Shown here: in pieces, positions 1,911 to 38,771 of the stretch | Layout: every line of letters starts with the position of its first letter | How positions within the stretch are numbered: position 1 is the stretch's first letter | Assembly: GCF_000484635.1 (NCBI RefSeq) | Contig: NZ_AXVM01000005.1 | Location: 1 to 64,000, forward strand | Length of the DNA: 64,000 nt | Source: Comamonas badia DSM 17552 | GTDB lineage: Bacteria; Pseudomonadota; Gammaproteobacteria; Burkholderiales; Burkholderiaceae_C | Reading direction: 5' to 3' | Notes under the pieces: model-generated | What the model saw: only the letters and a program-made list of their open reading frames with translations | The model's database searches: none | Told to the model about the DNA's origin: nothing | Program-made: the position numbers and the translations under genes

Positions 1911-3190
1911 GTGCTGATTCGCGGCTGAAGCCGCTCCCACAAAGCCAGGCCGAGTCCTCTCCTGTGGGAGCGGCTTCAGCCGCGAACTCCCCCACCGTCC
2001 TGCGTGCCGACGCCCTGGCCAAGGAATACCGCCTCTACGCCTCGCCGCGCGAACGCTTTCGCGCGCTGTTCACGCGCCGGGCGCTGCACCGCAGCCATTG
2101 GGCCTTGCGGGGCGTGACGTTTGAACTGCAGCGCGGCCAGTGCCTGGGCGTGATCGGGGACAACGGCGCGGGCAAGAGCACCCTGCTCAAACTGCTGACG
2201 GGCACGATACAGCCCAGCAGCGGCAGCGTCTGGCACGCCGGGCGGGTGACCGCGATTCTGGAGTTGGGAGCGGGCTTCCACCCCGATTTCAGCGGGCGCG
2301 ACAACCTGTACTTTGGCGGCAGCCTGATCGGCATAGGCGCGGAGCAGATGGCGCGGCTGGAGCCCGAAATCATCGCCTTCTCCGAACTGGGCGAAGCCAT
2401 GGACCGGCCGGTGAAGACCTATTCCTCGGGCATGGTGGTGCGCCTGGCGTTCGCGCTGGTCACCGCCGTGCAGCCCGATGTGCTCATCATCGACGAGGCG
2501 CTGGCCGTGGGCGACCAGCATTTCCAGAAGAAGTGCACCGAGCGCATCATGGCCTTTCGCGAAAGCGGCTGCGCCATCGTGTTCTGCTCGCACAGTTCCT
2601 ACCACATCCGCCACATGTGCGATAGGGCGCTGTGGCTGCGCGATGGCCAGGTGGTGGAGCAGGGCGAGACCGAGGCGGTGATGGGTGCCTACGAGCTGCA
2701 CAGCCGCCTGCGCGAGCAGGCGCTGGCGCCGCTGCAGGCCGATGGGGAGCCCGCGGCAGACGCCAGGCGCATGCCGCAGACCGATGCCCAGGGCGCCTGC
2801 CTGATGGCGGTGACGATCGACGACTTGGACGGCGACCGCCCGGCGCTGCTCGCCAGCCCCGATCTGGTGGTGCGCTTCACGGTGCGCGGGCGGGGCGATG
2901 AATGCCCGAACCTGGGTTTCATGATCGAACTGGCGCAGGGCTCGGGCATCACCTCGCTGGCCACGCACGAGGAGGGCGCGCGCCCCATCCTCCAGCCGGA
3001 TGGCACCTGGCAGGCGGTGCTGACCTTTCCCGACTTGCCGCTGCACAGCGGCGAGTATGTGGTGAGCGCCTATCTATTCGACGAAACCGGGCTGGTGCTG
3101 TACGACGCGTGGCTGCAGTACCAGCGCTTTCGCTTCGTCTCGCCGACGCTGATGCCGGGGCTGGTGCGGCTGCCGCATCGGTGGGGGTGA
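1907..3190 (+). CDS. wzt: Polysaccharide ABC exporter, ATPase with sugar-binding C-domain (Wzt)
   Basis: The protein has 427 residues. The ATPase domain has Walker A GDNGAGKST near residue 85, signature SSGMVVRLAFA, and Walker B VLIIDEALAVGDQ. After about residue 290 comes a beta-rich domain like the C-terminal carbohydrate-binding domain of Wzt proteins that recognise the capped end of an O-antigen. The only credible start is the GTG overlapping the wzm stop. As a result, residues about 5-26 are encoded by a REP-like repeat pair (1918-1986), an extension not expected in the family. Nearby methyltransferases could supply the chain cap. Confidence 0.88.
   Translation: MSADSRLKPLPQSQAESSPVGAASAANSPTVLRADALAKEYRLYASPRERFRALFTRRALHRSHWALRGVTFELQRGQCLGVIGDNGAGKSTLLKLLTGTIQPSSGSVWHAGRVTAILELGAGFHPDFSGRDNLYFGGSLIGIGAEQMARLEPEIIAFSELGEAMDRPVKTYSSGMVVRLAFALVTAVQPDVLIIDEALAVGDQHFQKKCTERIMAFRESGCAIVFCSHSSYHIRHMCDRALWLRDGQVVEQGETEAVMGAYELHSRLREQALAPLQADGEPAADARRMPQTDAQGACLMAVTIDDLDGDRPALLASPDLVVRFTVRGRGDECPNLGFMIELAQGSGITSLATHEEGARPILQPDGTWQAVLTFPDLPLHSGEYVVSAYLFDETGLVLYDAWLQYQRFRFVSPTLMPGLVRLPHRWG
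1918..1986. repeat. REP-like repeat A, inverted pair, inside wzt
   Basis: Two inverted 24-base units (1918-1941 and 1963-1986) of the form TGTGGGAGCGGCTTCAGCC plus GCGAA, separated by 21 bases. Each unit has its own GGCTTCAGCC-type hairpin. This copy is inside the open reading frame of wzt. Confidence 0.9.
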
Positions 3191-3204
3191 GGGTGGATGG
3201 TAAA

Positions 3205-3230
3205 ATGTAATACGTATACCGTATTTACAT
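3205..3230. promoter_or_regulatory. Operator-like imperfect palindrome of the MazEF-type module
   Basis: A 26-base near-palindrome begins ATGTAATACG and ends CGTATTTACAT, centred on TATAC. It ends 11 bases before the antitoxin ATG and stands out as AT-rich in GC-rich surroundings. This is the expected place for autoregulation by the ribbon-helix-helix antitoxin. Confidence 0.55.
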
Positions 3231-3241
3231 GAGGCTGCTCA

Positions 3242-3788: not shown

Positions 3789-3846
3789 TGATCCGGCTGC
3801 TGAACGAAGGGTTCTCGCCGCGATTTGATTTTCCCCAAACATCCCT

Positions 3847-4734: not shown

Positions 4735-4743
4735 GGAGGCGGC

Positions 4744-5346: not shown

Positions 5347-5350
5347 AAGT

Positions 5351-6925: not shown

Positions 6926-7048
6926 GGGATTCCCTCTGCGTCGTGGTTGCGGGCGTGCCGCGGGGCACGTGCAGCCATTCTGTGGCGCCACGAGAGGGTG
7001 GACAAGTGACTTTGGTCACTGTCTGAGGTTGATGATTTGCGGAAGTCG

Positions 7049-7121
7049 TTCGCGGCTGAAGCCGCTCTCACAGCAAAAATAGAGGTATCTGGGTTTTTGT
7101 GGGAGCGGCTTCAGCCGCGAA
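7049..7121. repeat. REP-like repeat A, inverted pair
   Basis: Inverted units at 7049-7072 and 7098-7121, between the secreted-protein gene and the end of the giant glycosyltransferase gene. The left unit carries one substitution (CTCTCACA for CTCCCACA). The remaining sequence between 6926 and 7125 shows no gene. Confidence 0.9.
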
Positions 7122-7125
7122 CGAA

Positions 7126-10100
7126 TCAGGCCTGCAGCCAGGTCTTGACGCGCTGCTGCCAGTGCGCGGGCACGGCGCGCGCGACGCTGCGCAGCAGGGG
7201 CAGGCTGCGCAGCCGCACGAGCACACCGAGCAGGCCGGTCTTGACCACGGCATCGGCGCCGGGCTGGGGCAGCCAGGCGGCGAGCGCGGCGGCCGTCAGG
7301 GGCGGCGCGCCGGAGGCGACGGGCGCGGGCAGGCCCGCCAGGTAGTCGCGCTCATAGCGCCAGTCGGCCGCGGCACCGTGCGTGCCCACGGGTGGTTCGG
7401 GCGGCGTGGCGCTGGCAAAGTGGGCGCTGCGCAGCCCGGTGAAAAATGCCACCCATTGCGCCGCGCTCTGGTCCCACGGGTGTACCCAGCTCCAGGGGCG
7501 GCCCGCGACGCGTTCGGCAAAGGCGCCGATGTCGGGCACGGCCACGGGCAGGCCGGCCTGCAGCACCGCGCTCAGCGTGTAGCTGTAGGTTTCCGGCCAT
7601 TGGGCCGGGAACCACACCAGGTCGGGCTGCAGCCAGGCCAGCAGCCCGGGCAGGTCTTCGTCCTGGTACTCGCCGTGCACCGTGAGGCGCGCGCGCGGCT
7701 GGGTCTGCAGGTGGCGGTAGCAGTAGCCCAGCAGGTGGAATTCCAGCGGTGCGTTGCGCCTGGCGGCTTCCAGCGCTGCCGCTTCGAGTACGTCGGCACC
7801 CTTGATGACGCTGAGCGCGCCGATGACGACGATCTTCAGCGGGCGGCCCTCACCCCTGCTCTCTCCCAGAGGGAGAGGGGGAAAGAAAGGGGCGGGCGCT
7901 GGGGTGGGCAGGTGCGTGCCGGGTGCGATGTCGGTGTGCGGCACGACGAGCACGCTGGCTGCCGGGGCAAATGCGGCGATGCGCGCGCCGCAGTCGTGGC
8001 TGGGGGTGAAGACGTGGCGTGCGTTGGTCAGCAGGTAGGCGTTGGCGCCGCGCCATTGGGCGACGGTTTTGGCATCCGAGGGTGCGTCCCCCGGCGCGGC
8101 CATCTCGGGCGGGCAGCAGCGGCACTGGCCCGGGGCGCTCTCGCCTTCGTAGTGACTGCCTTTGCCGGTCATGCTGATGTAAGTGCAATAGCTGTAGTAA
8201 TCGTGCACCGTGCAGTCGTAGGCCACATGCAGCAGCGCGGGCAGGTCGCGCACGCGCGCATCGTGCCCGAGCAGGTGGTGGTAGTGCAGATGGCGGACGC
8301 CGAGCTGGCGCAGCACGGTGAGCAGATCGTTCCACTGGTCTTTCAGGCGGAAGGCGAGGGTGAAGCCTTCGCCCCGGCCTGCCATGCGCAGCAGCACGCG
8401 GCCGCCGGCCGCCGGCGTGAGCGTGAGAAACTGCGCCGTGCCGGCAAGGTGCAGGGCCAGTTCGCGCACATGCCGCACCGTACCGCCGGCGCGGTCGTGC
8501 AGCACGGCGAGGATGGTGGGCCGGTGCGCGACCTGCAGACGGGCCACGTCCAGCGCCAGCCGGTACGGCGCGGCCGGGTCGGCCTGCACGAAGGCCTGCA
8601 CCTCGCGCGCATAGCGCGGGTACAGGCGGTCCAGGGTCTGCATGGCGGCGCGCTCGCGCGGGCTCTTGCTGTCGCCGAAGCTCACGCCGCCGGTGTGCAG
8701 CACGAAGGTGTCGAGCAGATGCAGGTTGCGCCAGCCCCTGGCGGCGGCGCGCTGGCAGAAGTCGTTTTCTTCGCCGTAGCCCTTGCCGAAGTTGGCCACG
8801 TCGAAGAGGCCCACGTCACGCAGGCAGTCGCGGCGGATGTACATGCAGAAACCCACGCCGGTGGGCACGTCGACGACCGCGCCGGGGTGGGTGCGGGCGC
8901 ACAGCGCATCCAGGCTGGCGGTGGTTTCGCCCGGCGGCAGCGGGTTGTCCTTGCAGAAGCGCGGGTAGCTGCAGATGGTGGCGTTGGTCGAGAACGGCGT
9001 GACGCTGGCGACCTTGGCGTCGCCATAGGCGGCGGCGCGGATGCGGTCGAGCCAGTCGTTTGCCACCTCGGTGTCGCTGTTGAGCAGCAGCACGTCGTTG
9101 TCGCTGGAATGCTGCATGCCGCGGTTCACCGTGGCGACGAAGCCGAGGTTCTCCTCGTTTTCGAGCAGCGTGATGCGGTCCGGGTGCTGCGCGGCAATCT
9201 CGCGCAGCCAGGCGGTGACTTCGGGCTCGGGGCTGCAATCGTTGATCACGACCAGGCGCCAGTCGCAGGCCAGCGGCGCCGCGAGCACCGAGGCGATGCA
9301 GCGCCGGGTATCGGCCAAGCCCTTGTAGACCGGGATGATGATGTCCACCGGGTGGGCGGCGGGGGCGATGGGTGTGGCGGCCGGGCGGCGCGCGGCGCGC
9401 AGGCGCCTGGGCGTGCGGCCCAGCAGGCGATCGACTTGCATCTTGGCGGCGACCAGCGGGCGCGTGGCCCGGAAGATGGTGGAATTCTCTATGGCCGTGA
9501 GGTGTTCGCCCAGGCCGCGCAGTTCGTGGCGCAGGCGGGCGGTCTCGCGCTGCCACTGGTCGGCCTGCTGCTGAAAGCTGCTGCTTTGTTCCTGCAGCAG
9601 CCGGGTCTGGGCAAGGCTGGTCTGGAGTTGCGGCTCCAGCACGCCCAGACGCGCCAGCAGCGGCTGGACGGTGGCCGAGAGCGCCAGATAGTCGGCCGAC
9701 ATCGGCCAGCCCAGTTCCACCTCCAGCCGCGCGGCGCCCGAGAGCTGCGCGGCGGGGATGGGCAGTTCAAGCCACGGGTCCTCGCCGGTCAGCAGCAGCA
9801 GCGCGGGGCTGCTGGCGGGCAGCGGGCCCTGCCAGACGATGGATTGCAGCCGGGTGTTGGCCAGCAGCGCGCCGGCGCCGTCCGCACTGGTCCATTGCCA
9901 CAGGCAATGGGCCTGCGCATCGAGCAGGCGCAGGCGGTGCAGGTGCAGAAAGCCGGGGCGGTCGGCCGGGTCCAGGCGGATGGTGGTGGGCGGCGCGGCG
10001 CTGTCGGGCAGCGTGAAGTGCAGCGTTTGCCGCTCCTGCCCCAGCACGCCGGTGGCGCTGCGCTTGTCCTGCTCGGCAAAGCCCTGGCGGCCATAGGCCA

Positions 10101-10863
10101 CGTACAGCTGCGCGGTGAACAGCGCGGTGGCGGGCGCGTCGTTGGCGCCGAAGTCGTTGGCCACCACCTCCGGGGCGGGTTCGGCGGCGCCGATGAACTG
10201 GTAGGCCAGCGCATCGGGCGTGGCCAGCAGGTAGCGCGCGACGGCGGGCGGCAGCTCGTCAAAGCGGGTTTTGAACTCCGATTCCGGCAGTTCGCGGCGG
10301 ATGGTGTCCAGCTGACGCAGCGCCCATCGGTTTTCTCCGAGGAAGCGGCTGAGCGAGCGGCGCGTGAAAAAGCGCAGGTGGGTGCGGTCGAGCAATCCTT
10401 CCTCGCGGTAGCGGAACTCGCCCTGCAGCAGTTCGGCGATCAGCCCGGCGTAGCCGGCGTTGGGGACGGATGTCAGCAGTTGCCCGCCGCTTTTGAGCAG
10501 CAGGCGGCAGGCATCGAGCACGCGCTCGGGCTGGCTCAGGTGTTCGAGCACGTCGGCACAGACGATGGTGTCGTAACTGTTGTGCTCGAATGTTTCCAGC
10601 AGATCGCAGGTCTCCAGGTTGTCGACGACCACGCGGCGGTAGTGCGGGCGGGCGTGCGCGGCCTCGGCTTCGCTCCAGGTCAGGCCGTCGACGGTGCACT
10701 GGCGGGTTTCGCGCAGGTACTGGCCGAGCGCGCCGCTGCCGCAGCCGAGATCCAGCACCGTGGCGCCGGGTGGGGCGAGGCTGGCAAGAACGGAGAGCGA
10801 GGTGCGTTCGCCCTCGCGGATGCTGCGCAGGTAGACGTGCAGATCCGTGATGGTTTGTGTCAT
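7126..10863 (-). CDS. Giant methyltransferase / GT2 / GT4-like glycosyltransferase
   Basis: This 1245-residue protein has at least three modules. Residues 30-200 are a SAM methyltransferase (VLDLGCGSGALGQYL, then VCADVLEHLSQPERVL). Residues about 380-500 are variable and partly coiled-coil. Residues about 500-760 are a family 2 glycosyltransferase (VDIIIPVYKG, VINDCSPEPEV, ENEENLGFVATVNRGM, DVLLLNSDTEV near residue 590). The last 450 residues resemble a GT-B (family 4/1) transferase, with GTVRHVREL at its start and LKIVVIGALSVIKGADVLE in its second half. It probably adds and modifies several sugars during O-chain synthesis. A type B repeat encodes residues about 991-1005 (PPLPLGESRGEG), between the two GT-B halves. 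Confidence 0.85.
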   Translation of the reverse strand: MTQTITDLHVYLRSIREGERTSLSVLASLAPPGATVLDLGCGSGALGQYLRETRQCTVDGLTWSEAEAAHARPHYRRVVVDNLETCDLLETFEHNSYDTIVCADVLEHLSQPERVLDACRLLLKSGGQLLTSVPNAGYAGLIAELLQGEFRYREEGLLDRTHLRFFTRRSLSRFLGENRWALRQLDTIRRELPESEFKTRFDELPPAVARYLLATPDALAYQFIGAAEPAPEVVANDFGANDAPATALFTAQLYVAYGRQGFAEQDKRSATGVLGQERQTLHFTLPDSAAPPTTIRLDPADRPGFLHLHRLRLLDAQAHCLWQWTSADGAGALLANTRLQSIVWQGPLPASSPALLLLTGEDPWLELPIPAAQLSGAARLEVELGWPMSADYLALSATVQPLLARLGVLEPQLQTSLAQTRLLQEQSSSFQQQADQWQRETARLRHELRGLGEHLTAIENSTIFRATRPLVAAKMQVDRLLGRTPRRLRAARRPAATPIAPAAHPVDIIIPVYKGLADTRRCIASVLAAPLACDWRLVVINDCSPEPEVTAWLREIAAQHPDRITLLENEENLGFVATVNRGMQHSSDNDVLLLNSDTEVANDWLDRIRAAAYGDAKVASVTPFSTNATICSYPRFCKDNPLPPGETTASLDALCARTHPGAVVDVPTGVGFCMYIRRDCLRDVGLFDVANFGKGYGEENDFCQRAAARGWRNLHLLDTFVLHTGGVSFGDSKSPRERAAMQTLDRLYPRYAREVQAFVQADPAAPYRLALDVARLQVAHRPTILAVLHDRAGGTVRHVRELALHLAGTAQFLTLTPAAGGRVLLRMAGRGEGFTLAFRLKDQWNDLLTVLRQLGVRHLHYHHLLGHDARVRDLPALLHVAYDCTVHDYYSYCTYISMTGKGSHYEGESAPGQCRCCPPEMAAPGDAPSDAKTVAQWRGANAYLLTNARHVFTPSHDCGARIAAFAPAASVLVVPHTDIAPGTHLPTPAPAPFFPPLPLGESRGEGRPLKIVVIGALSVIKGADVLEAAALEAARRNAPLEFHLLGYCYRHLQTQPRARLTVHGEYQDEDLPGLLAWLQPDLVWFPAQWPETYSYTLSAVLQAGLPVAVPDIGAFAERVAGRPWSWVHPWDQSAAQWVAFFTGLRSAHFASATPPEPPVGTHGAAADWRYERDYLAGLPAPVASGAPPLTAAALAAWLPQPGADAVVKTGLLGVLVRLRSLPLLRSVARAVPAHWQQRVKTWLQA
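7849..7890. repeat. Type B repeat inside the giant glycosyltransferase gene
   Basis: The sequence CCTCACCCCTGCTCTCTCCC followed by AGAGGGAGAGGG has the composition and hairpin of the intergenic type B repeats elsewhere. It is read in frame on the minus strand as a Pro/Gly/Glu-rich linker. Confidence 0.8.
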
Positions 10864-10919
10864 GGGCGCGGATTATCCCAAGGCGGGGCGGGCCGCCGTG
10901 CGGCGACAATAGCGGCCTC

Positions 10920-21497: not shown

Positions 21498-21507
21498 TGC
21501 GTCTTTG

Positions 21508-21617
21508 CTCCTTCCCCCTCCGGGGGAAGGTTGGGATGGGGGCGCACGGCGCCAAACAGGCCAGGCGGCTTGCCACGCTGGCCCCCACCCCAGCCCTCCC
21601 CCGGGAGGGGAGGGAGC
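21508..21617. repeat. Type B repeat pair, left of the DUF559 gene
   Basis: CTCCTTCCCCCTCCGGGGGA then AGGTTGGGATGGGGGC, and the inverted partner GCCCCCACCCCAGCCCTCCC then CCGGGAGGGGAGGGAGCC, separated by about 40 bases. It begins about ten bases after the FadN-like gene. Confidence 0.85.
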
Positions 21618-21649
21618 CAATACTGCGAGCCGCCATTTTTTGTAGAACG

Positions 21650-22069
21650 ATGCGAAACCAGGCCACACCGCGTGCTTACGCCAATGCCCAGGCATTGCGC
21701 AGCGCCATGACCGACTCGGAGCGCAAGCTCTGGAGCGGCCTGCGCGGCGAGCAGCTCGGCGTGAAATTTCGGCGCCGGCATCCGCTGGGCTCCTACATCG
21801 CGGACTTTGCCTGCCTGGAGCCCAGGTTGATCGTCGAGCTCAATGGCTCGCAGCATCAGGAACAGGCTGGGTACGACGCACGCCGTGATGCGTTTTTTCG
21901 TTTCCAAGGCTTTGACGTGCTGCGCTTTCCGTCCAATACGCCGTTGCTGGAATTGGAAGGCGTGTTGCAGGCTATTGCCGAGCGGCTGGCGGATCTGCAG
22001 CGCCAGCCCCCATCCCCACCTTCCCCCAGAGAGGGGAAGGAGTTGAAGTCACAAGGAGTCAGACCATGA
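21650..22069 (+). CDS. DUF559 endonuclease-fold protein
   Basis: The protein has 139 residues. The DUF559 signature is clear: LRSAMTDSERKLWSGLRGEQ, GVKFRRRHPLGSYIADFAC, LIVELNGSQHQEQAGYDARRD and VLRFPSNTPL. The Glu in ERKLW, the Asp in ADFAC, and the Glu and Gln around ELNGSQH match the catalytic pattern of very-short-patch-repair/PD-(D/E)XK-like nucleases. Its true target is unknown. It interrupts an otherwise continuous fad operon, is flanked on both sides by type B repeats, and its last 20 residues are encoded partly by one (QPPSPPSPREGKE). Its stop overlaps the thiolase ATG. Confidence 0.85.
   Translation: MRNQATPRAYANAQALRSAMTDSERKLWSGLRGEQLGVKFRRRHPLGSYIADFACLEPRLIVELNGSQHQEQAGYDARRDAFFRFQGFDVLRFPSNTPLLELEGVLQAIAERLADLQRQPPSPPSPREGKELKSQGVRP
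22006..22042. repeat. Type B half-repeat inside the end of the DUF559 gene
   Basis: GCCCCCATCCCCACCTTCCC then CCAGAGAGGGGAAGGAG matches the right halves of other type B copies. It codes for residues about 119-131 of the DUF559 protein and ends just upstream of the thiolase ribosome-binding region. Confidence 0.85.
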
Positions 22070-29433: not shown

Positions 29434-29437
29434 TGCG

Positions 29438-31081
29438 ATGAAGCCATTCGACTCTGGCTGGAATGCCGCCAGCAGCACTGCCCAGGCGCGGCAGGCGCGG
29501 ATGCTTGCGCGCATCGATCAACTGCGCGCGCTGGAAGAACGCGCCGCCGCCGTCTCCGCCCAGGCCGGGCCACGCTTTGCCAAACGCGGCCAGCTGCTGC
29601 CGCGCGAGCGCGTGGCGCTGCTGCTGGACGCAGGCAGCCCCTGGCTGCCGCTGGCCACGCTGGCGGGCTATCTGCGCGATACCGAGGATGCCGAAAAGTC
29701 CATCCCCGGCGGCAGCGTGATCGCCGGCATCGGTTTTGTCTCCGGCACGCGCTGCATGGTGGTGGCGAGCGATTCGGGCATAGACGCCGGCGCGCTGGTG
29801 CCCATGGGCCTGTACAAGGTGCTGCGCGTGCAGGAGATCGCGCTGGCCGAGCGCCTGCCCTTCATCCACCTGGTGGAGAGCGCGGGCGCCAATCTGGCGG
29901 ATTACAAGGTCAACACCTTCGTCGAGGGCGGTTCGCTGTTCCGCAACCTGGCGCGGCTGTCGGCCGCGGGCATTCCGGTCATCACCGTGCAGCACGGCTC
30001 GGGCACGGCGGGCGGCGCCTACATGCCCGGCCTGTCGGATGTCGTCATCATGGTCGAAGGCCGCTCGCGCGCCTTTCTGGCCGGGCCGCCGCTGCTCAAG
30101 GCCGCCACTGGCGAGGTGGCGACCGAAGAAGAACTGGGCGGCGCGCTGATGCACACCACCGTCTCCGGCCTGGGCGAATACCTGGCGCGTGACGACCGCG
30201 AGGCGCTGGGCCTGGCGCGCGAGGTGGTGGCGCAATTGCAATGGTCAAATAAGCCTGCAGCGCAAGCCAGTCAAGCGCAAACAGCTATCAATACAGGATA
30301 TGCGGAGCCGCCCTGGCCGCAGGATGAACTGCTCGCCCTGATGCCCGCCCACCACCGCGAGCCGGTGGACATGCGCGAAGTGGCGGCGCGCATCGCCGAT
30401 GGCGGCGCGCTGCTGGAATTCAAGAGCGGCTACGGCAGCGCCACCGTCTGCCTGCAGGCAGCCATCCACGGCCACGCCATCGGCATCATCACCAACAACG
30501 GGCCCATCGACATCGCCGGTGCCAACAAGGCCACGCACTTCATCCAGTGGATGTGCCAGCTCGGCCACCCGCTCATCTACCTGCAGAACACCACCGGCTA
30601 CATGGTGGGCAAGGACGTGGAGCAGGGCGGCATCATCAAGCACGGCAGCAAGATGATTCAGGCGGTAACCAACGCCACCGTGCCGCAGCTCACCATCCAG
30701 TGCGGCGCGAGTTTTGGCGCCGGCAACTACGGCATGTGCGGGCGCGGCTACGCGCCGCGTTTTCTCTTCACCTGGCCGAGCGCCGTCACCGCCGTGATGG
30801 GCGGCGAGCAGGCCGCCGGCACCATGCGCATCGTCACCGAGGCCGCCATTCGCCGCAAAGGCGTGGAGCCCGACCCCGCGCGCATGCAACAGCAGTTCGA
30901 TGCCATCGTGCAGATGTTCGAGCGCCAGCAGGACGCCTTTTACACCAGCGGCGGCCTGCTGGACGACGGCGTGATCGACCCGCGCGACACCCGCGCCGTG
31001 CTGGGCTTTTGCCTGGACACCATCGCCGAAGGCGCGGCGCGGCCGGTGCGGCCCATGCAGTTTGGGGTGGCGCGGATGTGA
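29438..31081 (+). CDS. atuC: Acyl-CoA carboxylase beta subunit (geranyl/methylcrotonyl-CoA type)
   Basis: This 547-residue carboxyltransferase has two crotonase-fold halves. Half 1 has HGSGTAGGAYMPGLSDVVIM and RAFLAGPPLLKAATGE; half 2 has IITNNGPIDIAGANKATHFI and GASFGAGNYGMCGRGY. With the biotin subunit encoded downstream it carboxylates a 3-methyl-2-enoyl-CoA. Wording such as AYMPGLSD and the surrounding genes (AtuA, SDR, dehydrogenases) favour geranyl-CoA carboxylase over methylcrotonyl-CoA carboxylase, but this is inference. A type C repeat (30243-30298) codes for about 18 residues between the halves (KPAAQASQAQTAINTG). Confidence 0.82.
   Translation: MKPFDSGWNAASSTAQARQARMLARIDQLRALEERAAAVSAQAGPRFAKRGQLLPRERVALLLDAGSPWLPLATLAGYLRDTEDAEKSIPGGSVIAGIGFVSGTRCMVVASDSGIDAGALVPMGLYKVLRVQEIALAERLPFIHLVESAGANLADYKVNTFVEGGSLFRNLARLSAAGIPVITVQHGSGTAGGAYMPGLSDVVIMVEGRSRAFLAGPPLLKAATGEVATEEELGGALMHTTVSGLGEYLARDDREALGLAREVVAQLQWSNKPAAQASQAQTAINTGYAEPPWPQDELLALMPAHHREPVDMREVAARIADGGALLEFKSGYGSATVCLQAAIHGHAIGIITNNGPIDIAGANKATHFIQWMCQLGHPLIYLQNTTGYMVGKDVEQGGIIKHGSKMIQAVTNATVPQLTIQCGASFGAGNYGMCGRGYAPRFLFTWPSAVTAVMGGEQAAGTMRIVTEAAIRRKGVEPDPARMQQQFDAIVQMFERQQDAFYTSGGLLDDGVIDPRDTRAVLGFCLDTIAEGAARPVRPMQFGVARM
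30243..30298. repeat. Type C repeat inside the carboxylase beta gene
   Basis: AATAAGCCTGCAGCGCAAGC then CAGTCAAGCGCAAACAGC and TATCAATA. It shares GCGCAAACAGCTATCAAT with the copy in atuA (38383-38430). It is translated in frame in the hinge between the two carboxyltransferase halves. Confidence 0.75.
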
Positions 31082-31107
31082 ACTTCCAATACGCGTTGCC
31101 GATTTTC

Positions 31108-31211
31108 TCCTTCCCCCTCTGGGGGAAGGCCGGGATGGGGGCTTGCGTTGCAGGGCGATCCACGTGCCGCACCAGCTCCCACCCCACCCTCCCCCCAGAG
31201 GGGGAGGGGGT
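31108..31211. repeat. Type B repeat pair
   Basis: CTCCTTCCCCCTCTGGGGGA then AGGCCGGGATGGGGGC, with the inverted partner ending CCCAGAGGGGGAGGGGG. It fills the gap between the carboxylase beta gene and the next acyl-CoA dehydrogenase gene. Confidence 0.85.
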
Positions 31212-31234
31212 AACACCATCATCAGGAGACACCC

Positions 31235-32413: not shown

Positions 32414-32430
32414 CAGGCTTTGGCATTTTC

Positions 32431-32605
32431 TCCTTCCCCTTTCGGGGGAAGGCAGGGATGGGGGCGAGCGGCGCTGGAGTTAGAGACGTCGCCAGCCCCC
32501 ACCCCAACCCCGGTGCTGGCGGCGAGACGCCGCCGCTCTTCGATCTGTCCCGCTTCGCGCAGGCGAAGCGTGAGCCTCAGCTCTCAGCCCCGAAAGGGGA
32601 GGGAG
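32431..32605. repeat. Type B repeat, composite copy with inserted hairpin
   Basis: The left half (TCCTTCCCCTTTCGGGGGAA then GGCAGGGATGGGGGC) and right half (CAGCCCCGAAAGGGGAGGGA) are separated by extra sequence containing GGCGGCGAGACGCCGCC, a strong hairpin flanked by CCCCGGTGCT. The same inserted hairpin occurs inverted in the copy at 35987-36107. Confidence 0.8.
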
Positions 32606-32621
32606 AAATTCAGGGGAACGC

Positions 32622-32738
32622 ATGAACAAGATACTGATTGCCAACCGCGGCGTTCATGCCGCAGGCATGGCGAAGCAAATTGCCCGGGTACGCGCAGCGT
32701 GCGTGCGGGCGATCGAGCCGCGGAGGTGCTGCGCATGA
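32622..32738 (+). other. Upstream ORF duplicating the start of the carboxylase alpha subunit
   Basis: A 38-codon frame with its own AGGGGA begins MNKILIANRG, almost the same ten residues as the carboxylase (MKKILIANRG), then diverges (VHAAGMAKQIARV). Its stop overlaps the real start codon (ATGA). It looks like a partial tandem duplication of the gene start that now acts as an upstream ORF, possibly coupling translation. It may also simply be debris. Confidence 0.6.
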
Positions 32739-34822
32739 AGAAGATCCTGATAGCCAACCGTGGCGAGATCGCCCGCCGCGTCATCGCCACGGCGCAGCGC
32801 ATGGGCATAGACACCGTCGCCGTGCATTCCGATGCCGATGCCCACGCGCCCCATGTGCGCGAGGCCACGCAGGCTTATGCGCTCGGCGGCAACACCTCGG
32901 CTGAAAGCTATCTGCGCGTAGACAAGCTGCTGGCCGCGGCCAAGGCCACGGGCGCGGATGCGATCCATCCGGGCTACGGCTTCTTGAGCGAAGACGCGAG
33001 CTTTGCCCAGGCCGTCATTGATGCAGGACTGGTGTGGATAGGCCCGCCGCCCGCCGCCATCCGCGCGCTGGGCGACAAGGGCGCGGCCAAGCGGCTGGCG
33101 GTGGCGCAGGCCGTGCCGGTGCTGCCCGGCTATGCGGGCGAAGACCAGTCGCCGGAGCGCTTTGCCCAAGAGGCCGACAAGATCGGCTACCCGGTGATGG
33201 TCAAGGCCGTCGCGGGTGGCGGCGGGCGCGGCATGCGCCTCGTGATGCAGGCGGGCGATCTGCACGCGGCGATGCAGAGCGCCAGCTCCGAGGCACTGGC
33301 CGGGTTTGGCAACGGCCAGCTCCTGATCGAGCGCGCCGTGATGCAGCCGCGCCATGTCGAGGTGCAGGTGTTTGCCGATGCGCTGGGGCATTGCATCCAT
33401 CTGGGCGAGCGCGATTGTTCCGTGCAGCGGCGCCACCAGAAAATCATTGAAGAGGCACCGTCCCCGGCGGTCTCTGCCGAACTGCGCGCCAGCATGGGCG
33501 AGTGCGCCGTGGCGCTGGCCCAGGGCGCGGGCTACGTGGGCGCGGGCACGGTGGAGTTTCTGCTGGAGGGCGACGCCTTCTACCTGATGGAGATGAACAC
33601 CCGTCTGCAGGTGGAGCACCCGGTGACCGAGGCGATCACCGGGCTGGATCTGGTCGAATGGCAGATCCGCGTGGCGCGGGGCGAGGCGCTGCCGCTCACG
33701 CAGGATCAGGTGCCACTGAGCGGCCATGCGATCGAGGTCCGCCTGTGCGCCGAGGACGAGAACTACACCTCGCACGCCGGGCGCATCCTGCACTTTGCCG
33801 AGCCGCCGGGCGCGAGTCACTTCGCGCGTTCTGCGCTGCGCTTTGACCATGCGATCGCTTCCGGCGCCGAGGTCACGCCGTTCTACGACGCGATGCTGGG
33901 CAAGCTCATCGTCCACGCCCCCACGCGTGCCGAGGCGATCGCCGCGCTGGCCGGGGCATTGGCGCAGACCGAGGTGCTGGGCCTGCCCACCAACCGCGCC
34001 TTCCTGGTCGAATGCCTGCGCGATGCGCGCTTTGGTGCGGGGCAGGCGCTGATTTCCTTCCTTGATATGCATGGCGACGCACTGCGCGCAACGCTCCTTG
34101 AAAGAGAGCTGCTTGCGCATGTCCATCATGCGCTGGCGGCGGTTTTGCCTTTGAACCAAGGCCTGGCCTGCGCCTACGCTGCGCCGCGCCGATTGGTGCA
34201 CCGGGACAAGGCGCAAACGCTGGCCGTGCGTGCCGTGGCTGGTGGCTGGCAGGTGCAGGAGGTGGGTAGCCCGCTGCCCGACCTCTCTGGTAGGAGCGGT
34301 TTCAGCCGCGAAGAAGCGCCTTCGCGGCTGAAGCCGCTCCCACAGCAGCAGCAGGGGGACGCCCCGCCACCATGGCGCACCATCGCCGTGCAGCCGCTCG
34401 CCGATGGCAGCCTGCGCTGCACCGAAGACGGCCTGGCCGAGCGCGTGCGCGCCGTGGCCGTGCCCGGTGGCGTGGGCGGCGAGGGCGGCCAGCGCTGGCA
34501 TGCGCAATCGGGCGGCGTGGATTGGTGGTTTGAAGACGTCACCTATCTGCCGCAAGCGGGCGCCGGTGGTGCGCTGGCAGCTACGGAATTGAAAGCGCCG
34601 TTCAATGGCCGCGTGGTACGCATCGCGGTGCAGCCGGGCCAGGCGCTGGCCCAGGGCGAGGCGGCGCTGGTGGTCGAATCGATGAAGCTGGAGCACAGCC
34701 TCGCGCCGCGCGCCGCCGTCACGGTGGCCGAGGTGCTGGTGGAGGTCGGCCAGCAGGTCACGCCGGGCCAGATATTGCTGCGCTTTGCCAAGCCAGAGCA
34801 GCAGCAAAAGGAGGCCGCATGA
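32735..34822 (+). CDS. atuF: Acyl-CoA carboxylase alpha subunit with biotin domain
   Basis: This 695-residue protein has a biotin carboxylase part at residues 1-450 (KKILIANRGEIARR; ATP-grasp loop KAVAGGGGRGMR; EMNTRLQVEHPVTE) and a biotinyl domain at the C-terminus, with the biotin-accepting Lys about residue 651 in VVESMKLEHS. It transfers CO2 to biotin for the beta subunit encoded upstream. The start ATG 32735 has GGAGG and overlaps an upstream ORF. Between the domains, a type A repeat is translated (GRSGFSREEAPSRLKPLPQ, residues about 519-537). It overlaps the next gene by four bases. Confidence 0.87.
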   Translation: MKKILIANRGEIARRVIATAQRMGIDTVAVHSDADAHAPHVREATQAYALGGNTSAESYLRVDKLLAAAKATGADAIHPGYGFLSEDASFAQAVIDAGLVWIGPPPAAIRALGDKGAAKRLAVAQAVPVLPGYAGEDQSPERFAQEADKIGYPVMVKAVAGGGGRGMRLVMQAGDLHAAMQSASSEALAGFGNGQLLIERAVMQPRHVEVQVFADALGHCIHLGERDCSVQRRHQKIIEEAPSPAVSAELRASMGECAVALAQGAGYVGAGTVEFLLEGDAFYLMEMNTRLQVEHPVTEAITGLDLVEWQIRVARGEALPLTQDQVPLSGHAIEVRLCAEDENYTSHAGRILHFAEPPGASHFARSALRFDHAIASGAEVTPFYDAMLGKLIVHAPTRAEAIAALAGALAQTEVLGLPTNRAFLVECLRDARFGAGQALISFLDMHGDALRATLLERELLAHVHHALAAVLPLNQGLACAYAAPRRLVHRDKAQTLAVRAVAGGWQVQEVGSPLPDLSGRSGFSREEAPSRLKPLPQQQQGDAPPPWRTIAVQPLADGSLRCTEDGLAERVRAVAVPGGVGGEGGQRWHAQSGGVDWWFEDVTYLPQAGAGGALAATELKAPFNGRVVRIAVQPGQALAQGEAALVVESMKLEHSLAPRAAVTVAEVLVEVGQQVTPGQILLRFAKPEQQQKEAA
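34291..34344. repeat. REP-like repeat A, inverted pair, inside the carboxylase alpha gene
   Basis: TAGGAGCGGTTTCAGCCGCG and the inverted partner TTCGCGGCTGAAGCCGCTCC, with a gap of about 10 bases. One arm has a T for C change. The copy lies in the linker between the carboxylase and biotinyl domains and keeps the reading frame. Confidence 0.92.
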
Positions 34823-35979
34823 GCTTCACCCCCGAAGAACTGCGCGAGGCGACGACCCAGCTCGCCGATACCGTCGCCCGCTTTGCCCGCAGCGAGATCG
34901 CGCCGCACGCCACCGAGTGGGACCAGGCGGGTGAATTCCCGCGCCAGCTCTACCGCCGCGCGGCCGATCTGGGCCTGCTCGGCCTGGGCTACCCCGAGGC
35001 GCTCGGTGGCACGCCCGCGCCCTACGCGCTGCGCATGCCGGCCTGGCGCGCGCTGTGCCGTCATGGCGCCTCGGGCGGGGTGCAGGCCAGCCTGTTTTCA
35101 CACAACATCGCGTTGCCGCTGGTGGTGGCGCTGGGTGCGCCCGAGGTGCAGCGCGAGGTGGTGCCGCCGGTGCTGGCGGGCGAGAAAATTGCCGCGCTGG
35201 GCATCACCGAACCCGGCGGCGGTTCGGACGTCGCGCAACTCAAAACCACTGCGCGGCGCGACGGCGGCGACTACGTCATAGACGGCGAAAAAATCTTCAT
35301 CACCTCCGGCATGCGCGCCGACTGGTTCACGCTGGCGGTGCGCACCGATGCGGCCAGCAAGGGCGCGGGCGGCATCAGCCTGATCGTGGTGCCGGGCGAT
35401 ACCCCCGGCCTTTCGCGCACGCGGCTGGACAAGATGGGCTGGCTGTCTTCGGACACCGCCCACCTGCGCTTTGACGGCGTGCGCGTGCCCGCGCGCTACC
35501 TGCTGGGGGCAGAGGGCGCGGGCTTCAAGGGCATCATGGGCAACTTCAACGGCGAGCGGCTTGGCCTGGCGGCAGGCGCCGTCGGCTTTGCCGAGGCGTG
35601 TCTGGATGAAGCGCTCTCCTGGGCGCGCCAGCGCAGCACCTTCGGCCAGCCGCTGGTGGCGCACCAGGTGATCCGCCACAAGCTGGTGGACATGCGCCAG
35701 CGCATCTGCGCCACCGCCGCCTGGCTGGATGCCGTGGCCGCGCGCGCCGATGCGGGCGACACCAGCCCCGACTGGGTGGCCGAGGTTTGCACCCTTAAAA
35801 ATCAGGCCACGCAGACGATGCAGTTCTGCGCCGATGCGGGCGTGCAGATTCTGGGCGGCATGGGCTATATGCGCGGCACGGTGTGCGAGCGCATCTACCG
35901 CGAGGTCAAGGTGATCACCATAGGCGGCGGCACCGAGGAAATCATGAAGGAGCTGGCGGCGCGCCAGTGGGGGTTTTGA
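34819..35979 (+). CDS. Acyl-CoA dehydrogenase, second of the Atu-like cluster
   Basis: The enzyme has 386 residues. Its FAD motif is ALGITEPGGGSDVAQL; ITSGMRADWFTLAVR and the helix RQRSTFGQPLVAHQVIRHK follow. The C-terminal base position reads TIGGGTEEIMKE (no Glu at the YEG site), while FNGERLGLAAG supplies the alternative Glu seen in branched-chain dehydrogenases. It starts inside the stop of the biotin subunit gene. A second dehydrogenase is expected for shorter intermediates after carboxylation and hydration of the branched chain. Confidence 0.9.
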   Translation: MSFTPEELREATTQLADTVARFARSEIAPHATEWDQAGEFPRQLYRRAADLGLLGLGYPEALGGTPAPYALRMPAWRALCRHGASGGVQASLFSHNIALPLVVALGAPEVQREVVPPVLAGEKIAALGITEPGGGSDVAQLKTTARRDGGDYVIDGEKIFITSGMRADWFTLAVRTDAASKGAGGISLIVVPGDTPGLSRTRLDKMGWLSSDTAHLRFDGVRVPARYLLGAEGAGFKGIMGNFNGERLGLAAGAVGFAEACLDEALSWARQRSTFGQPLVAHQVIRHKLVDMRQRICATAAWLDAVAARADAGDTSPDWVAEVCTLKNQATQTMQFCADAGVQILGGMGYMRGTVCERIYREVKVITIGGGTEEIMKELAARQWGF

Positions 35980-35986
35980 CTTTTTC

Positions 35987-36107
35987 ACTCCCTCCCCCGA
36001 AGAGCGGCGGCGTCTCGCCGCCAGCACCGGGGTAGGGGCCAGCCAGCCAGCCACCGTGCTTCTGCGAGCCGCCCCCATCCTGCCTTCCCCCAGAGAGGGA
36101 AGGAGTC
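35987..36107. repeat. Type B repeat, composite copy with inserted hairpin
   Basis: CTCCCTCCCCCGAAGAGCGG then the hairpin GGCGGCGTCTCGCCGCC and CAGCACCGGGG, ending with CCCCCATCCTGCCTTCCCCC then AGAGAGGGAAGGAG. The hairpin portion is the inverse of that in 32431-32605. Confidence 0.82.
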
Positions 36108-36132
36108 GAATTCTGAATCGAGGAATATACGC

Positions 36133-36897
36133 ATGACGGAACTGCTGGTTCAACGCAAAGACGGTGTCCTCTGGCTCACCATTGCCCGCGAAGAGCGGCG
36201 CAATGCGATGAGCGCGGCGGTGGTCGAAGGCCTCACGCGGCAATTGCAGCAGGCCAATGCCGACCGCAGCCTGCGCGCCATCGTGCTCACCGGCGCGGGT
36301 GAGAAGGCCTTCTGTGCCGGGGCCGATCTGGCCACGGGCAAGTCGTTCAAGTTTGACTATTCCGAACCGCAGCAGGGCTTTGCCAACCTGCTGCGCGCGG
36401 CGCATGCCACGCATCTGCCCTTGATTGCACGCGTGAACGGTGCCTGCATGGCGGGCGGCATGGGGCTGCTTGCGATGTGCGACCTGGCGGTGGCCGCGCC
36501 GCACGCGCGCTTTGGCCTGCCGGAGGTGAAGGTGGGCGTATTCCCCGCGCAGGTGCTCACCGTGCTGCAGGGCTTGGTCGGCCGGCGCGCGCTGGCAGAT
36601 TTGTGTATCACCGGCGAACCGATGGACGCGCAGCAGGCGCTGGCCATTGGCCTGATCAACGAGGTGGCCGAGGATCTGGACGCCGCAGTGGGCAAGCTCC
36701 TTGCGCGCATCCTGGATAAATCCCCCGCCGCCATCCGCCGCGGGCTGTATCTGATGAAGCACCTGGACGGCCTGCCGTTCGCGCAGTCCATGGCCTTTAC
36801 CGAAAGCCAGATTGGCCTTTTTGCGCTGACCGAAGACGCGGCCGAGGGGCAGGCCGCCTTCCGTGAAAAGCGGGCACCGAACTGGAGTGGCAAATGA
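36133..36897 (+). CDS. Enoyl-CoA hydratase (AtuE-like)
   Basis: This 254-residue crotonase has oxyanion loops AFCAGADLATGKS (about residue 60) and ACMAGGMGLLAMCDLAVAA, and the Glu in FGLPEVKVGVFPAQV corresponds to a catalytic hydratase Glu. In Pseudomonas, AtuE hydrates isohexenyl-glutaconyl-CoA produced by the carboxylase. This position and length fit, but 3-methylglutaconyl-CoA is also possible. The stop overlaps the atuA start (ATGA). Confidence 0.88.
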   Translation: MTELLVQRKDGVLWLTIAREERRNAMSAAVVEGLTRQLQQANADRSLRAIVLTGAGEKAFCAGADLATGKSFKFDYSEPQQGFANLLRAAHATHLPLIARVNGACMAGGMGLLAMCDLAVAAPHARFGLPEVKVGVFPAQVLTVLQGLVGRRALADLCITGEPMDAQQALAIGLINEVAEDLDAAVGKLLARILDKSPAAIRRGLYLMKHLDGLPFAQSMAFTESQIGLFALTEDAAEGQAAFREKRAPNWSGK

Positions 36898-38771
36898 CGG
36901 ACACAAAAATCATCCGCATCGGCGGCGCCTCCGGCTTCTGGGGCGATTCCAGCGTGGGCGCGCCGCAGCTGGTGGCGAGCGGCCAGGTGGACTACCTGGC
37001 GTTCGATTACCTCGCCGAGCTCACCATGTCCATCCTGGCCGGCGCGCGCATGAAAAAGCCCGAGCTGGGCTATGCGACCGACTTCGTCACGGTGGCGATG
37101 CGCGCCGTGCTCAAGGACGTGGTGGCCCAGGGCATTCGCGTGGTGAGCAACGCCGGCGGCGTGAACCCCGAGGGCTGCGCCGATGCGCTGCGCGCGCTGG
37201 CCGCCGAGCTGGGCGTGGCGGTGAAGATTGCTGTCGTCACGGGTGACGACGTGATGCCGCAATTGCCCGCCCTGCGCGATCGCCAGCCGCCGGTGGCCGA
37301 GTTGCAGAGCGGCGCGCCACTGCCCGCCAAGATCGTCACCGCCAACGCCTACCTGGGCGCGCTGCCCATCCAGGCGGCGCTGGATGCGGGCGCGCAGATC
37401 GTCATCACCGGCCGCTGCGTGGATTCGGCGGTGACGCTGGGCATCCTGATGCACGAGTTCGGCTGGCAGGCTGATGACTACGACCGCCTGGCGGGAGGCA
37501 GCCTGGCCGGCCACATCATCGAATGCGGCTGCCAGGGCACGGGCGGGCTGCATACGGATTGGGAGGCGGTGCCCGACTGGGCGCATATCGGCTACCCCAT
37601 CGTCGAATGCGCGGCGGATGGCAGCTTCACCGCCACCAAGCCCGCGGGCACCGGCGGGCTGGTCGCGCCGCAGGTGGTGGCCGAGCAGATGCTGTATGAA
37701 ATCCACGACCCGAAAGCCTATCTGCTGCCCGATGTGGTCTGCGATTTCACGCAGGTGACCATGGTGCAGACGGGCGCCGATCGTGTGCGGGTGGCAGGCG
37801 CGCGCGGCGTGGCGCCGACGGGCAGCTACAAGGTCTGCGCGACGTACATCGATGGTTTCAAGACCTCGGCGCAATTGACCATCGTCGGTATCGACGCCGT
37901 GGCCAAGGCGCGGCGCACCGGCGAGGCGATTCTGGAGCGTGTGGGCGGTTTGCTTGCCGCGCAGGGCATGGCGCCGTTCAGCGCCACGCACATCGAGGTG
38001 CTGGGGGCCGAGTCCGGCTGGGGGGCGCTGGCCAACCTAGCCGTGCAGCACACGCGCGAAGCGGTGCTGCGGCTCACCGCGCGCCATGCCGACAGGAAGG
38101 CGCTGGAGCTGCTGGCGCGCGAGATCGCGCCTGCGGGCACCTCGTTCGCTCCGGGCACCACCGGCGCGGGTGGGCGGTCTGGGGTGTCGCCGCTGATACG
38201 GCAATACGCGTTTTTGCTGGACAAGGCGAGCGTGGCGCCTGTGGTCGTGCTGGAGGGTGTTCTGGTCGCCGTCGGCCCTCACCCCCGCCCTCTCCCAGAG
38301 GGAGAGGGAGCAAATGCATCCCCGGTATCTCCCCCTCTCCCTCTGGGAGAGGGCAGGGGTGAGGGCTTGCATTCAAATCGGCCTGTAGCGCTTGACCACC
38401 CTGCGCAAACAGCTATCAATAATGAAGAGCAGACAGTACAAGTGCCTCTCATCCGCCTCGCCTGGGCCCGCTCGGGCGACAAGGGCGACACCTCCAACAT
38501 CGGTGTGATCGCGCGCAAGCCCGAGTGGCTGCCCCTGCTGCGCGCCCAGCTCACGCCCGAGGCGGTGAAGGCCTACCTGGCCCACGCCATCCAGGGCCAG
38601 GTCACACGCCATGAGGTGCCCGGCATCCACGCCTTCAACTTCGTCTGTGAACAGGCGCTGGGCGGCGGCGGCATGGCGTCGCTCAACAACGACGCGCTGG
38701 GCAAGGGCATGGGGCAGATGCTGCTGACCATGCCGATCCAGGTGCCAAGCGCATGGGGGTTGAAAGCATGA
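36894..38771 (+). CDS. atuA: Acyclic terpene utilisation protein AtuA
   Basis: This 625-residue protein is of the AtuA (DUF1446) type. The main domain, residues 1-450, contains IRIGGASGFWGDSSVGAPQL, VSNAGGVNPEGCADALR and ITGRCVDSAVTLG; a C-terminal ferredoxin-like AtuA domain starts at about residue 520 (LIRLAWARSGDKGDTSNIGV). AtuA is required for citronellol/geraniol growth in Pseudomonas, but its reaction is unknown. The linker between domains (residues 462-512) is made of translated repeat sequence: a type B copy (PRPLPEGEGANA, then PPLPLGEGRGEG) followed by a type C copy (HPAQTAINNE). Confidence 0.9.
   Translation: MTDTKIIRIGGASGFWGDSSVGAPQLVASGQVDYLAFDYLAELTMSILAGARMKKPELGYATDFVTVAMRAVLKDVVAQGIRVVSNAGGVNPEGCADALRALAAELGVAVKIAVVTGDDVMPQLPALRDRQPPVAELQSGAPLPAKIVTANAYLGALPIQAALDAGAQIVITGRCVDSAVTLGILMHEFGWQADDYDRLAGGSLAGHIIECGCQGTGGLHTDWEAVPDWAHIGYPIVECAADGSFTATKPAGTGGLVAPQVVAEQMLYEIHDPKAYLLPDVVCDFTQVTMVQTGADRVRVAGARGVAPTGSYKVCATYIDGFKTSAQLTIVGIDAVAKARRTGEAILERVGGLLAAQGMAPFSATHIEVLGAESGWGALANLAVQHTREAVLRLTARHADRKALELLAREIAPAGTSFAPGTTGAGGRSGVSPLIRQYAFLLDKASVAPVVVLEGVLVAVGPHPRPLPEGEGANASPVSPPLPLGEGRGEGLHSNRPVALDHPAQTAINNEEQTVQVPLIRLAWARSGDKGDTSNIGVIARKPEWLPLLRAQLTPEAVKAYLAHAIQGQVTRHEVPGIHAFNFVCEQALGGGGMASLNNDALGKGMGQMLLTMPIQVPSAWGLKA
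38278..38365. repeat. Type B repeat pair inside atuA
   Basis: CCTCACCCCCGCCCTCTCCC then AGAGGGAGAGGGAG, and the inverse CTCCCCCTCTCCCTCTGGGA then GAGGGCAGGGGTGAGGGC. Translated in frame in the interdomain linker of AtuA. Confidence 0.85.
38383..38430. repeat. Type C repeat inside atuA
   Basis: CCTGTAGCGCTTGACCACCC then TGCGCAAACAGCTATCAAT, directly following the type B copy. It matches the 3' half of the copy at 30243-30298. Confidence 0.75.

Follow-up and report, generated by a model that had tools for sequence, protein, structure and literature searches.

Do dispersed palindromes become parts of proteins in Comamonas badia, and what spreads them? The window, the 64,000-nucleotide stretch analyzed here, comprises positions 1–64,000 of contig NZ_AXVM01000005.1 of strain DSM 17552 (genome G000, 3.68 Mb). 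It carries three repeat families, termed F1, F2, and F3, which an earlier note had read as translated in frame inside at least six different proteins. The observation is real, with corrections, and is of a known kind. Palindromes in frame within genes have been described as Rickettsia palindromic elements and as intragenic repetitive extragenic palindromes (REPs), so translated repeats as such are not new. The likely new point is that palindromes of the BoxC type, to which F2 belongs by its sequence, bracket genes of DUF559 nucleases across Proteobacteria. In addition, BoxC tends to be abundant where DUF559 is present. We give a probability of roughly 0.6 to the explanation as a whole, in which mobile palindromes turn into translated linkers and the BoxC doublet is mobilized by DUF559. 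Compared loci carry L numbers (L152 is the window) and genomes carry G numbers. The nearest named relatives of the window loci are Comamonas metagenome-assembled genomes.

The three repeat families

All three families are dispersed in the genome, as had been claimed, and each is found in numbers far above a reversed-pattern control. F1 (GTGGGAGCGGCTTCAGCCGCGAA) is a REP-like hairpin with a GTRG foot (GTRGGAGCGG..). It is represented by 40 half-copies genome-wide at up to two mismatches (control 0) and usually forms inverted pairs, with at least two halves at 17 of 22 places. The GT(A/G)G foot, short hairpin, and inverted pairs place F1 among the GTAG-type REPs. F2 consists of a C-rich stem, CCCTC(C/T)CCC-loop-GGG(A/G)GAGGG, and a third C-rich arm. 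It gives 78 and 83 matches at up to two mismatches, most places counting on both strands of the palindrome, against 4 and 4 in the control. F3 is 54 bp long and ends in GCGCAAGCAGCTATCAATA. It gives 27 and 27 pattern matches at up to three mismatches (control 1 and 0) and at least 141 covariance-model matches (150 of 4534 candidates scored). Hidden Markov models (HMMs) of F2 and F3 have no match in reversed-sequence controls. F3 was rejected as a strong RNA hairpin, having only four pairs and scant covariation; in the Rfam annotation of six F3 sources, only a thiamine pyrophosphate riboswitch passed the threshold.

Judged by sequence, F2 is the BoxC/PIT/TMECO motif. Its stem and third arm agree with those in Table 1 of Holder et al. 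(2015, PMC4666352): the stem is of the CCCTC type, the loop is short, and the third arm is C-rich (G-rich); a GTAG foot is absent from F2. The motif is reported there in more than 260 genomes and is treated as an intergenic instability motif. In the accessible portion of that paper, its means of spread is left open, no mobility gene or function is reported beside the Escherichia coli copies, and the name ycjD does not occur. Palindromes of the F2 kind, 100 in Enterobacter sp. 638, are presumed to act in transcription termination in the part of PMC2869309 available.

The arrangement of F2 was read in 72 sequences, some overlapping, that total 582 kb and comprise the window and 71 stretches picked for holding repeats. 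In these, 85 F2 elements are distinguished, 60 of which have a neighbor within 200 nt. The neighbors are in '-+' order in 24 of 31 pairs, 23 of them spaced by 16–44 nt and one by 85 nt. In this genome, F2 is usually paired as a closely spaced inverted doublet of a single orientation, and this doublet is the dispersed unit, like a REPIN (a REP doublet forming a hairpin).

BoxC palindromes around DUF559 genes

The DUF559 gene of the window has F2 on both sides, in the order '-+ gene +'. Related loci were collected as top-scoring DUF559 matches, with no random draw and with weak ones (L153, L163–L167) omitted beforehand. In the window's taxonomic order, 37 of the 40 taken were used, the incomplete L171, L186, and L187 being dropped. 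In 32 of these 37 loci, an F2-type stem is found no more than 400 nt away on one side or both, and in 19 it is on both sides. The corresponding counts are 88 and 0 for 2959 random places in L001–L080, all from the window's own family, and 334 and 5 for 3000 random places in the window itself, where F2 is plentiful and the DUF559 gene is included. In outer windows of the same 37 loci, any motif is present in only two cases. Stems are also found in 12 of 14 loci from other orders of the class (6 on both sides) and in 8 of 13 from other classes (2 on both sides), giving 52 and 27 of all 64 loci. With an HMM trained only on the F2 copies of this genome, the counts are 40 and 19 of 64, and 3 for far windows. 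In a k-mer test of the two flanks against each other, 20 of 40 DUF559 loci were positive, against 44 of 592 random places. Loci of PF01797, the REP-associated tyrosine transposase (RAYT), are flanked by F2 on one side in 1 of 23 cases and on both sides in none (7 of 30 were dropped as incomplete).

The 3′ palindrome, where present, is less than 60 nt from the DUF559 gene in 36 of 41 cases, and some loci have extra palindromes outside the bracket. When the loose motif is used and orientation can be determined, 24 of 30 loci have '-' as the element closest to the gene on the 5′ side, and 24 of 29 have '+' as the closest one on the 3′ side. The HMM gives '-' in 17 of 27 on the 5′ side (p 0.25) and '+' in 26 of 32 on the 3′ side (p 0.0005). 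The 3′ orientation is firm, and that on the 5′ side is suggestive. If both hold, the elements of the bracket follow the '-+' order of the dispersed doublet.

One chromosomal place can be compared with and without the gene. Between the same two flanking genes, L002 and L006 have 22–24 nt and no palindrome. The place spans 544–1098 nt in L003, L152, L155, L157, L159, and L160 and 482 nt in L158, all with DUF559 and 2–10 F2 stems; L003 and L155 may be near-identical genomes. The lack of F2 at the empty place indicates that palindromes came or went together with the gene there. Five Acidovorax-type loci (L043, L048, L052, L055, and L065) have 543–561 nt at the DUF559 place and contain no F2.

The same association appears in E. 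coli K-12. Its ycjD gene ends in a degenerate BoxC, and one of the 23 K-12 copies tabulated in PMC4666352, TMECO no. 9, is the one beside ycjD, about 165 nt past its 3′ end. The gene is present in 3365 of 5426 E. coli genomes. Literature searches showed no link between DUF559 or ycjD and repeats among the papers and passages covered, with many subscription papers outside their scope.

DUF559 (PF04480) is the family of YcjD and Vsr-like nucleases. YcjD has been placed near Vsr in the PD-(D/E)XK superfamily (PMC1189080), and VsrA of Caulobacter is discussed as a possible mismatch-repair type nuclease (PMC12907096); the accessible parts of these two papers mention no link to repeats. Among 19 aligned DUF559 proteins, E15, D43, E54, H60, and D67 are invariant and D56 is nearly so, in keeping with the conserved acidic and histidine residues of a Vsr/EDxHD nuclease. 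The profile matches 3hrl, 'endonuclease-like protein' (E 1.7e-40), and 3r3p, 'mobile intron protein' (E 3e-4). The latter is presumably an EDxHD homing nuclease.

In L237, L244, and L251, from other classes, DUF559 lies beside a different stem, ATCTCCCCC..GGGGGAGAT, which is on both sides of the gene in L244. This stem is perhaps a further variant of the same system.

DUF559 and F2 also co-occur across genomes. One set of 300 genomes was used, in which 86 are DUF559-positive (E<=1e-10) and 37 weaker matches are counted as negative. At least five F2 copies are present in 56 of the 86 positive genomes and in 20 of the 214 others (p 3e-22). The odds ratio is 6.3 when stratified by family (p 2e-8), and the counts in the window's own family are 4 of 4 and 0 of 6. 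In the 116 genomes negative for PF01797, they are 10 of 15 and 4 of 101. G033, a DUF559-positive genome with no standard F2, has its DUF559 flanked instead by copies of a variant stem, CCCCTCCTT..AAGGAGGGG, one lying about 100 nt upstream of the domain and the other about 360 nt downstream. This variant has 100 copies in G033, is found at all in only 8 of the 300 genomes, and exceeds five copies only in G033, G121, and G158, which are all DUF559-positive.

These observations recall the REPIN-RAYT system (Bertels and Rainey 2011, PMC3116915), in which inverted doublets are dispersed and a nuclease gene lies near the same repeats, as far as the available part of that paper goes. The bracketed gene here is PF04480, of the PD-(D/E)XK/Vsr type, rather than a tyrosine (HUH) transposase, and the F2 stem differs from a REP in lacking the GTAG foot. 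A RAYT was considered as the mobilizer in the window genome and ruled out, since a profile search of G000 with PF01797 gave 0 matches (controls matched in 5 of 14).

The preferred explanation runs as follows. Several small mobile palindromic families would keep inserting in this lineage, most surviving copies lying outside genes and frame-keeping copies persisting in inter-domain linkers, loops, and tails. Copies inside genes would be translated, as their open frames suggest, and then decay or be replaced, as comparison of orthologues reveals. F2 (BoxC) is taken as the most abundant intragenic palindrome, and its doublet may be a non-autonomous unit mobilized by a DUF559 nuclease of the Vsr/EDxHD type. 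Palindromes of this kind stand on either side of the nuclease gene, an arrangement also seen with REPs and RAYT genes, and DUF559 would play the RAYT role for BoxC, whether by cutting, copying, or insertion. The bracketing, the co-occurrence, and the variant match in one genome are observed; that DUF559 mobilizes BoxC has about even odds in our estimate. The chances are likewise balanced for the broader reading that DUF559 proteins mobilize BoxC-type palindromes throughout Proteobacteria as a second REPtron-like system, in which BoxC doublets would be non-autonomous derivatives, each lineage's nuclease would co-vary with its palindrome, and insertions would seed and rewrite linkers. If true, a DUF559-BoxC system would account for a repeat that has been known since the 1990s and also for a family of nucleases, E. 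coli ycjD among them, whose role is unsettled. The bracketing and the co-occurrence make the spread of BoxC and the role of DUF559/YcjD testable in E. coli K-12.

Several points weigh against mobilization by DUF559. The standard motif is missing within 400 nt of 12 of the 64 DUF559 loci, and 24 are without it by HMM. The flank control comes from the window's family, with no separate control for the other orders and classes. Several loci represent a shared chromosomal place in related species, which makes the 64 non-independent. The 5′ orientation divides only 17 to 10 by HMM, and the nearest 5′ element in the window is '+'. Over 18 kb, L006 contains four F2 elements, although DUF559 is missing from the compared place. 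A clean E. coli empty site for ycjD was not found, as the two ycjD-lacking strains examined have other genes beside sapF. The linkers of atuA and of Hydrogenophaga cbxB, two of the genes described below, carry '+-' pairs and not the commoner '-+'. At position 56, the window DUF559 has N ('VELNG') where at least 90% of the 19 aligned proteins have D (VELDG or similar), and the copy may therefore be impaired. The association has exceptions: 15 of the 86 DUF559-positive genomes have no standard F2 (the follow-up of variants covered one of them, G033) and 13 DUF559-negative genomes have at least 10 copies. PF01797 also correlates with F2, more weakly (62 of 184 against 14 of 116).

Two other accounts concern the same data. 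Repeats might spread by other means, such as RAYTs acting in trans, replication slippage, or horizontal transfer, with insertions outside linkers purged and DUF559 merely residing in BoxC-rich intergenic space. This neutral survivorship is possible, if somewhat unlikely. Most repeat clusters do lie outside genes (43 of 156 are intragenic), the F2 consensus is free of stops in all frames and so survives easily within genes, PF01797 co-occurs with F2 as well, and a similar neutral view of linkers is taken in the part of PMC3733652 available. However, the window genome has no PF01797 match, DUF559 still predicts F2 in the PF01797-negative genomes, the frequent two-sided flanking is absent from the 2959 random places, any motif is rare in the outer windows, and the variant match in G033 would be unexpected of a passenger.

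Alternatively, DUF559 may be a homing-type nuclease that lands in BoxC palindromes and invades them without spreading them, which we regard as unlikely. The 3r3p match, the position of the gene between palindromes with the 3′ one so close, and the extra palindromes outside some brackets are all compatible with such invasion. Yet the empty place in L002 and L006 holds no F2 into which the gene could have landed. Homing also leaves the spread of BoxC unexplained, and the co-occurrence would require that BoxC came first.

Repeats in protein linkers

The clearest record of insertion is in cbxB, which encodes a geranyl-CoA-carboxylase-like beta subunit. From MKPFDSGW on, 81 sequences (the window protein and 80 orthologues) are nearly constant in length in every 30-residue segment (standard deviation (SD) at most 0.88) except 304–333, which varies from 17 to 61 residues (SD 9.9). 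All 18 insertions of at least five residues in the 80 orthologues relative to the window protein fall in this linker. By DNA motif, 38 of the 81 linkers bear repeats (20–61 residues), and these belong to five families: F3 (17), BoxC-type (12), CGTC-type REP (5), TTGAGCG-type (2), and GTTCGCCCTGAG-type (2). The last two names are coined here. Some F3 labels are weak; L023 and L079, also weak, are scored as repeat-bearing, and the weak L020 as repeat-free. The nearest solved relative, 5ikl, is seven residues shorter at the linker.

Repeat-free orthologues with equally long, unrelated sequence at the same site would speak against insertion. They are mostly not found: 39 of the 43 repeat-free cbxB linkers are 17–24 residues long, the others being L011 (33), L078 (32), L020 (30), and L027 (29). 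On a quick tree built without the linker, in which gains and losses are indistinguishable, the linker labels need 20 changes. The starred branches alone force six changes for F3, six for F2, three for the CGTC type, and two for each of the other two types. L003 has a TTGAGCG-type repeat in place of F3 within a clade of F3 carriers, indicating turnover. The cbxB linker is an unusually clear case of a linker rewritten by repeats. One enzyme linker rewritten repeatedly by unrelated repeats is a natural experiment on the tolerance of proteins to insertion.

Empty and filled sites are also found elsewhere. The F1 pair in cbxA, which encodes the carboxylase alpha subunit, occurs in the window and in L001 and L002. 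The other aligned orthologues lack it (71 were found, some of them incomplete); empty-site orthologues have much shorter sequence at its position. In atuA, with nine orthologues found, the F2 pair is common to the window, L003, and L010, decayed in L001 and L002, and absent from L006, L009, L011, and L053; the L008 sequence ends there. The loci of L001 and L002 contain no recognizable F2, while decayed BoxC-like peptides persist in their atuA, so old copies outlive the family there. The intergenic doublet downstream of cbxB is present in L003, is entirely missing, with a gap of 20–28 nt, in L001, L002, L005, L006, L008, L009, and L011, and corresponds to other sequence in L004, L007, and L010.

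The likeness to Rickettsia palindromic elements drawn by the earlier note is borne out as to the mode of insertion: palindromes are inserted in frame in protein genes in both cases (Rickettsia elements as cited in PMC3733652, of which part was available). The differences are the host group and the presence of several families together here. The intragenic GTAG and CGTC REPs of Di Nocera et al. (2013, PMC3733652) are similar too, being small palindromes translated in frame in real genes, including uvrA, recBCD, and truB. The available part of that paper reports intragenic REPs in many species, suggests linkers and loops as sites, and describes one recB gene pair with different REPs at about the same site; neither 'Comamona-' nor 'Acidovorax' occurs in its main text. 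Compared with it, the present case has one linker with five families in many genera, F2 belongs to BoxC rather than to the GTAG or CGTC types, and F3 adds another family.

The proposal that repeat insertion is creating protein linkers holds in so far as repeats enter genes in frame and sit in linkers, as the empty site in cbxA and the single cbxB linker indicate. It does not imply adaptation. The consensus is free of stops in six of six frames for F2, four for the F1 pair, and two for F3, so neutral survival of tolerated insertions suffices. We consider it quite improbable that repeat peptides have been selected as linkers. The mostly 30-residue length of F3-derived linkers is kept across Comamonas and Ottowia, and the decayed peptides in atuA persist at loci without recognizable F2, as selection might have it. 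Against this, cbxB linker length varies widely among orthologues, families replace one another as in L003, and repeat-free orthologues are common. Miscalled or dead genes with untranslated repeats do explain the plus-strand open reading frame (ORF) at 7099–11055 and possibly the wzt N terminus, but as a general account this is very improbable given the cbxB, cbxA, and atuA frames that are open through the repeat between conserved domains and the open frame across the linker in all 80 cbxB loci.

Sites in the window and in the rest of the genome

Table 1. Repeats and repeat-bearing genes in the window
Feature	Position	Strand	Remark
F1 inverted pair, wzm/wzt junction	1918..1986		translated only if wzt starts at GTG 1907
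Methyltransferase/family-2 glycosyltransferase gene with F2 copy	7126..10863	-	Pfam, coding score
F2 (BoxC) element, giant gene	7846..7885	+	translated in minus-strand gene as FFPPLPLGESRGEG
F2 (BoxC) element 5′ of DUF559	21504..21543	-	
F2 (BoxC) element 5′ of DUF559	21563..21623	+	
DUF559 (YcjD/Vsr-like) nuclease gene	21650..22069	+	probable start ATG 21650; domain 21677–21988
F2 (BoxC) element, DUF559 3′ end	22002..22042	+	read as C-terminal tail PPSPPSPREGKE
cbxB, geranyl-CoA-carboxylase-like beta subunit	29438..31081	+	best solved relative 5ikl
F3 element in cbxB linker	30244..30293	+	translated as WSNKPAAQASQAQTAINT
F2 inverted doublet, intergenic, cbxB/next gene	31103..31217		
cbxA, carboxylase alpha subunit	32735..34822	+	
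F1 inverted pair, cbxA, between biotin-carboxylase and biotinyl domains	34290..34344	+	translated as GRSGFSREEAPSRLKPLP
atuA	36894..38771	+	
Composite F2(+), F2(-), F3(+) in atuA	38274..38421	+	translated between AtuA and ferredoxin-like domains

Of the six window genes proposed to hold in-frame copies, four have them internally: cbxB, cbxA, atuA, and the giant gene. The frames of the first three are open through the repeat, with Pfam domains on either side. The cbxB and atuA copies have positive coding scores to either side, and the score upstream of the cbxA copy is low, because the stretch there is itself linker. For the giant glycosyltransferase gene, the long plus ORF at 7099–11055 was rejected, since it matches nothing in Pfam and scores negative for coding. 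The real gene is on the minus strand, and the case stands with the strand corrected, as judged by its open frame and by the coding scores to the left and right of the repeat. The remaining two genes are of a different nature. The copy at the 3′ end of DUF559 is the gene's own flanking repeat, read through as a C-terminal tail. The F1 pair at wzt is N-terminal and extends across the stop of wzm and the earliest possible codons of wzt; the start is ambiguous, as GTG 1907 would translate the pair and GTG 1964 begins inside it.

The 43 intragenic clusters were called by an automatic coding rule in the 582 kb of repeat-chosen stretches. By family, they comprise 23 of 81 F3 clusters, 16 of 44 F2, 4 of 9 with F2 and F3, 0 of 21 F1, and 0 of 1 with F1 and F2. 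The rule misses the cbxA F1 copy because its flank is itself linker. F1 still conforms to the view of REP-like elements as normally extragenic, with 0 of 22 F1-containing clusters intragenic by the rule and one, in cbxA, by orthologues. One frame (SN..QAQAAIN) is used by 17 of the 27 intragenic F3-containing clusters.

Host genes are named by our reading of their Pfam domains. They include UvrA (four clusters), HrpA-like helicase (two), Mfd, a UvrD-type helicase, three MmeI-like enzymes, TruB, threonine synthase, KdtA, an E2 acyltransferase, and a CT_C_D/CT_A_B (PxpB-PxpC-like) fusion. The repair and RNA-modification genes among them recall a bias reported earlier for intragenic REPs (PMC3733652, in the part available). 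Two RsmB-like enzymes are less sure hosts, as matches at a similar position in both proteins may be chance. The threonine synthase insert corresponds to a 10-residue gap in 3v7n, the Mfd insert falls between segments 23–365 and 405–1207 aligned to a solved relative, and the KdtA insert (267–285) precedes the segment aligned to 4bfc. In the E2 acyltransferase and the fusion, the inserts lie between Pfam domains. Among 20 F2-containing intragenic clusters, 13 are outside the reported best Pfam stretches, one is inside (the second of the HrpA-like helicase), two are at a break within the MmeI methyltransferase domain, and the four in UvrA are hard to place, one of them falling in a weak match to SMC_N.

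Some weak F3 calls, such as those in FemAB and DsbD genes, are probably chance matches; these two have HMM matches (about 1e-6 and 6e-8), but in the other open frame. An F3 pattern match in an AraC gene is also likely chance, having no HMM match.

Individual genes can accumulate repeats. A UvrA-like gene of 2078 residues (L094:1933–8166, minus strand) has four repeat clusters by the coding rule, and the MmeI-like gene of L098 also has four. In the CT_C_D and CT_A_B fusion (L117:4772–6490, minus strand), the linker between the two PxpB/PxpC-like parts consists of F2 and F3, as if repeat insertion had removed the stop between two genes.

Just 5′ of cbxA (32600–32735), a short ORF has first residues, MNKILIANRG, that are almost those of the cbxA N terminus, MKKILIANRG, and the same is found in L010 and L006. 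It is possibly a leader peptide or a duplication relic. A palindromic element, GGTGCTGGCGGCGAGACGCCGCCGCTCTTCG, lies within BoxC-like sequence at 32413–32735 and 35979–36133 of the window and also in L010, which suggests that BoxC is itself a target of another palindromic element.

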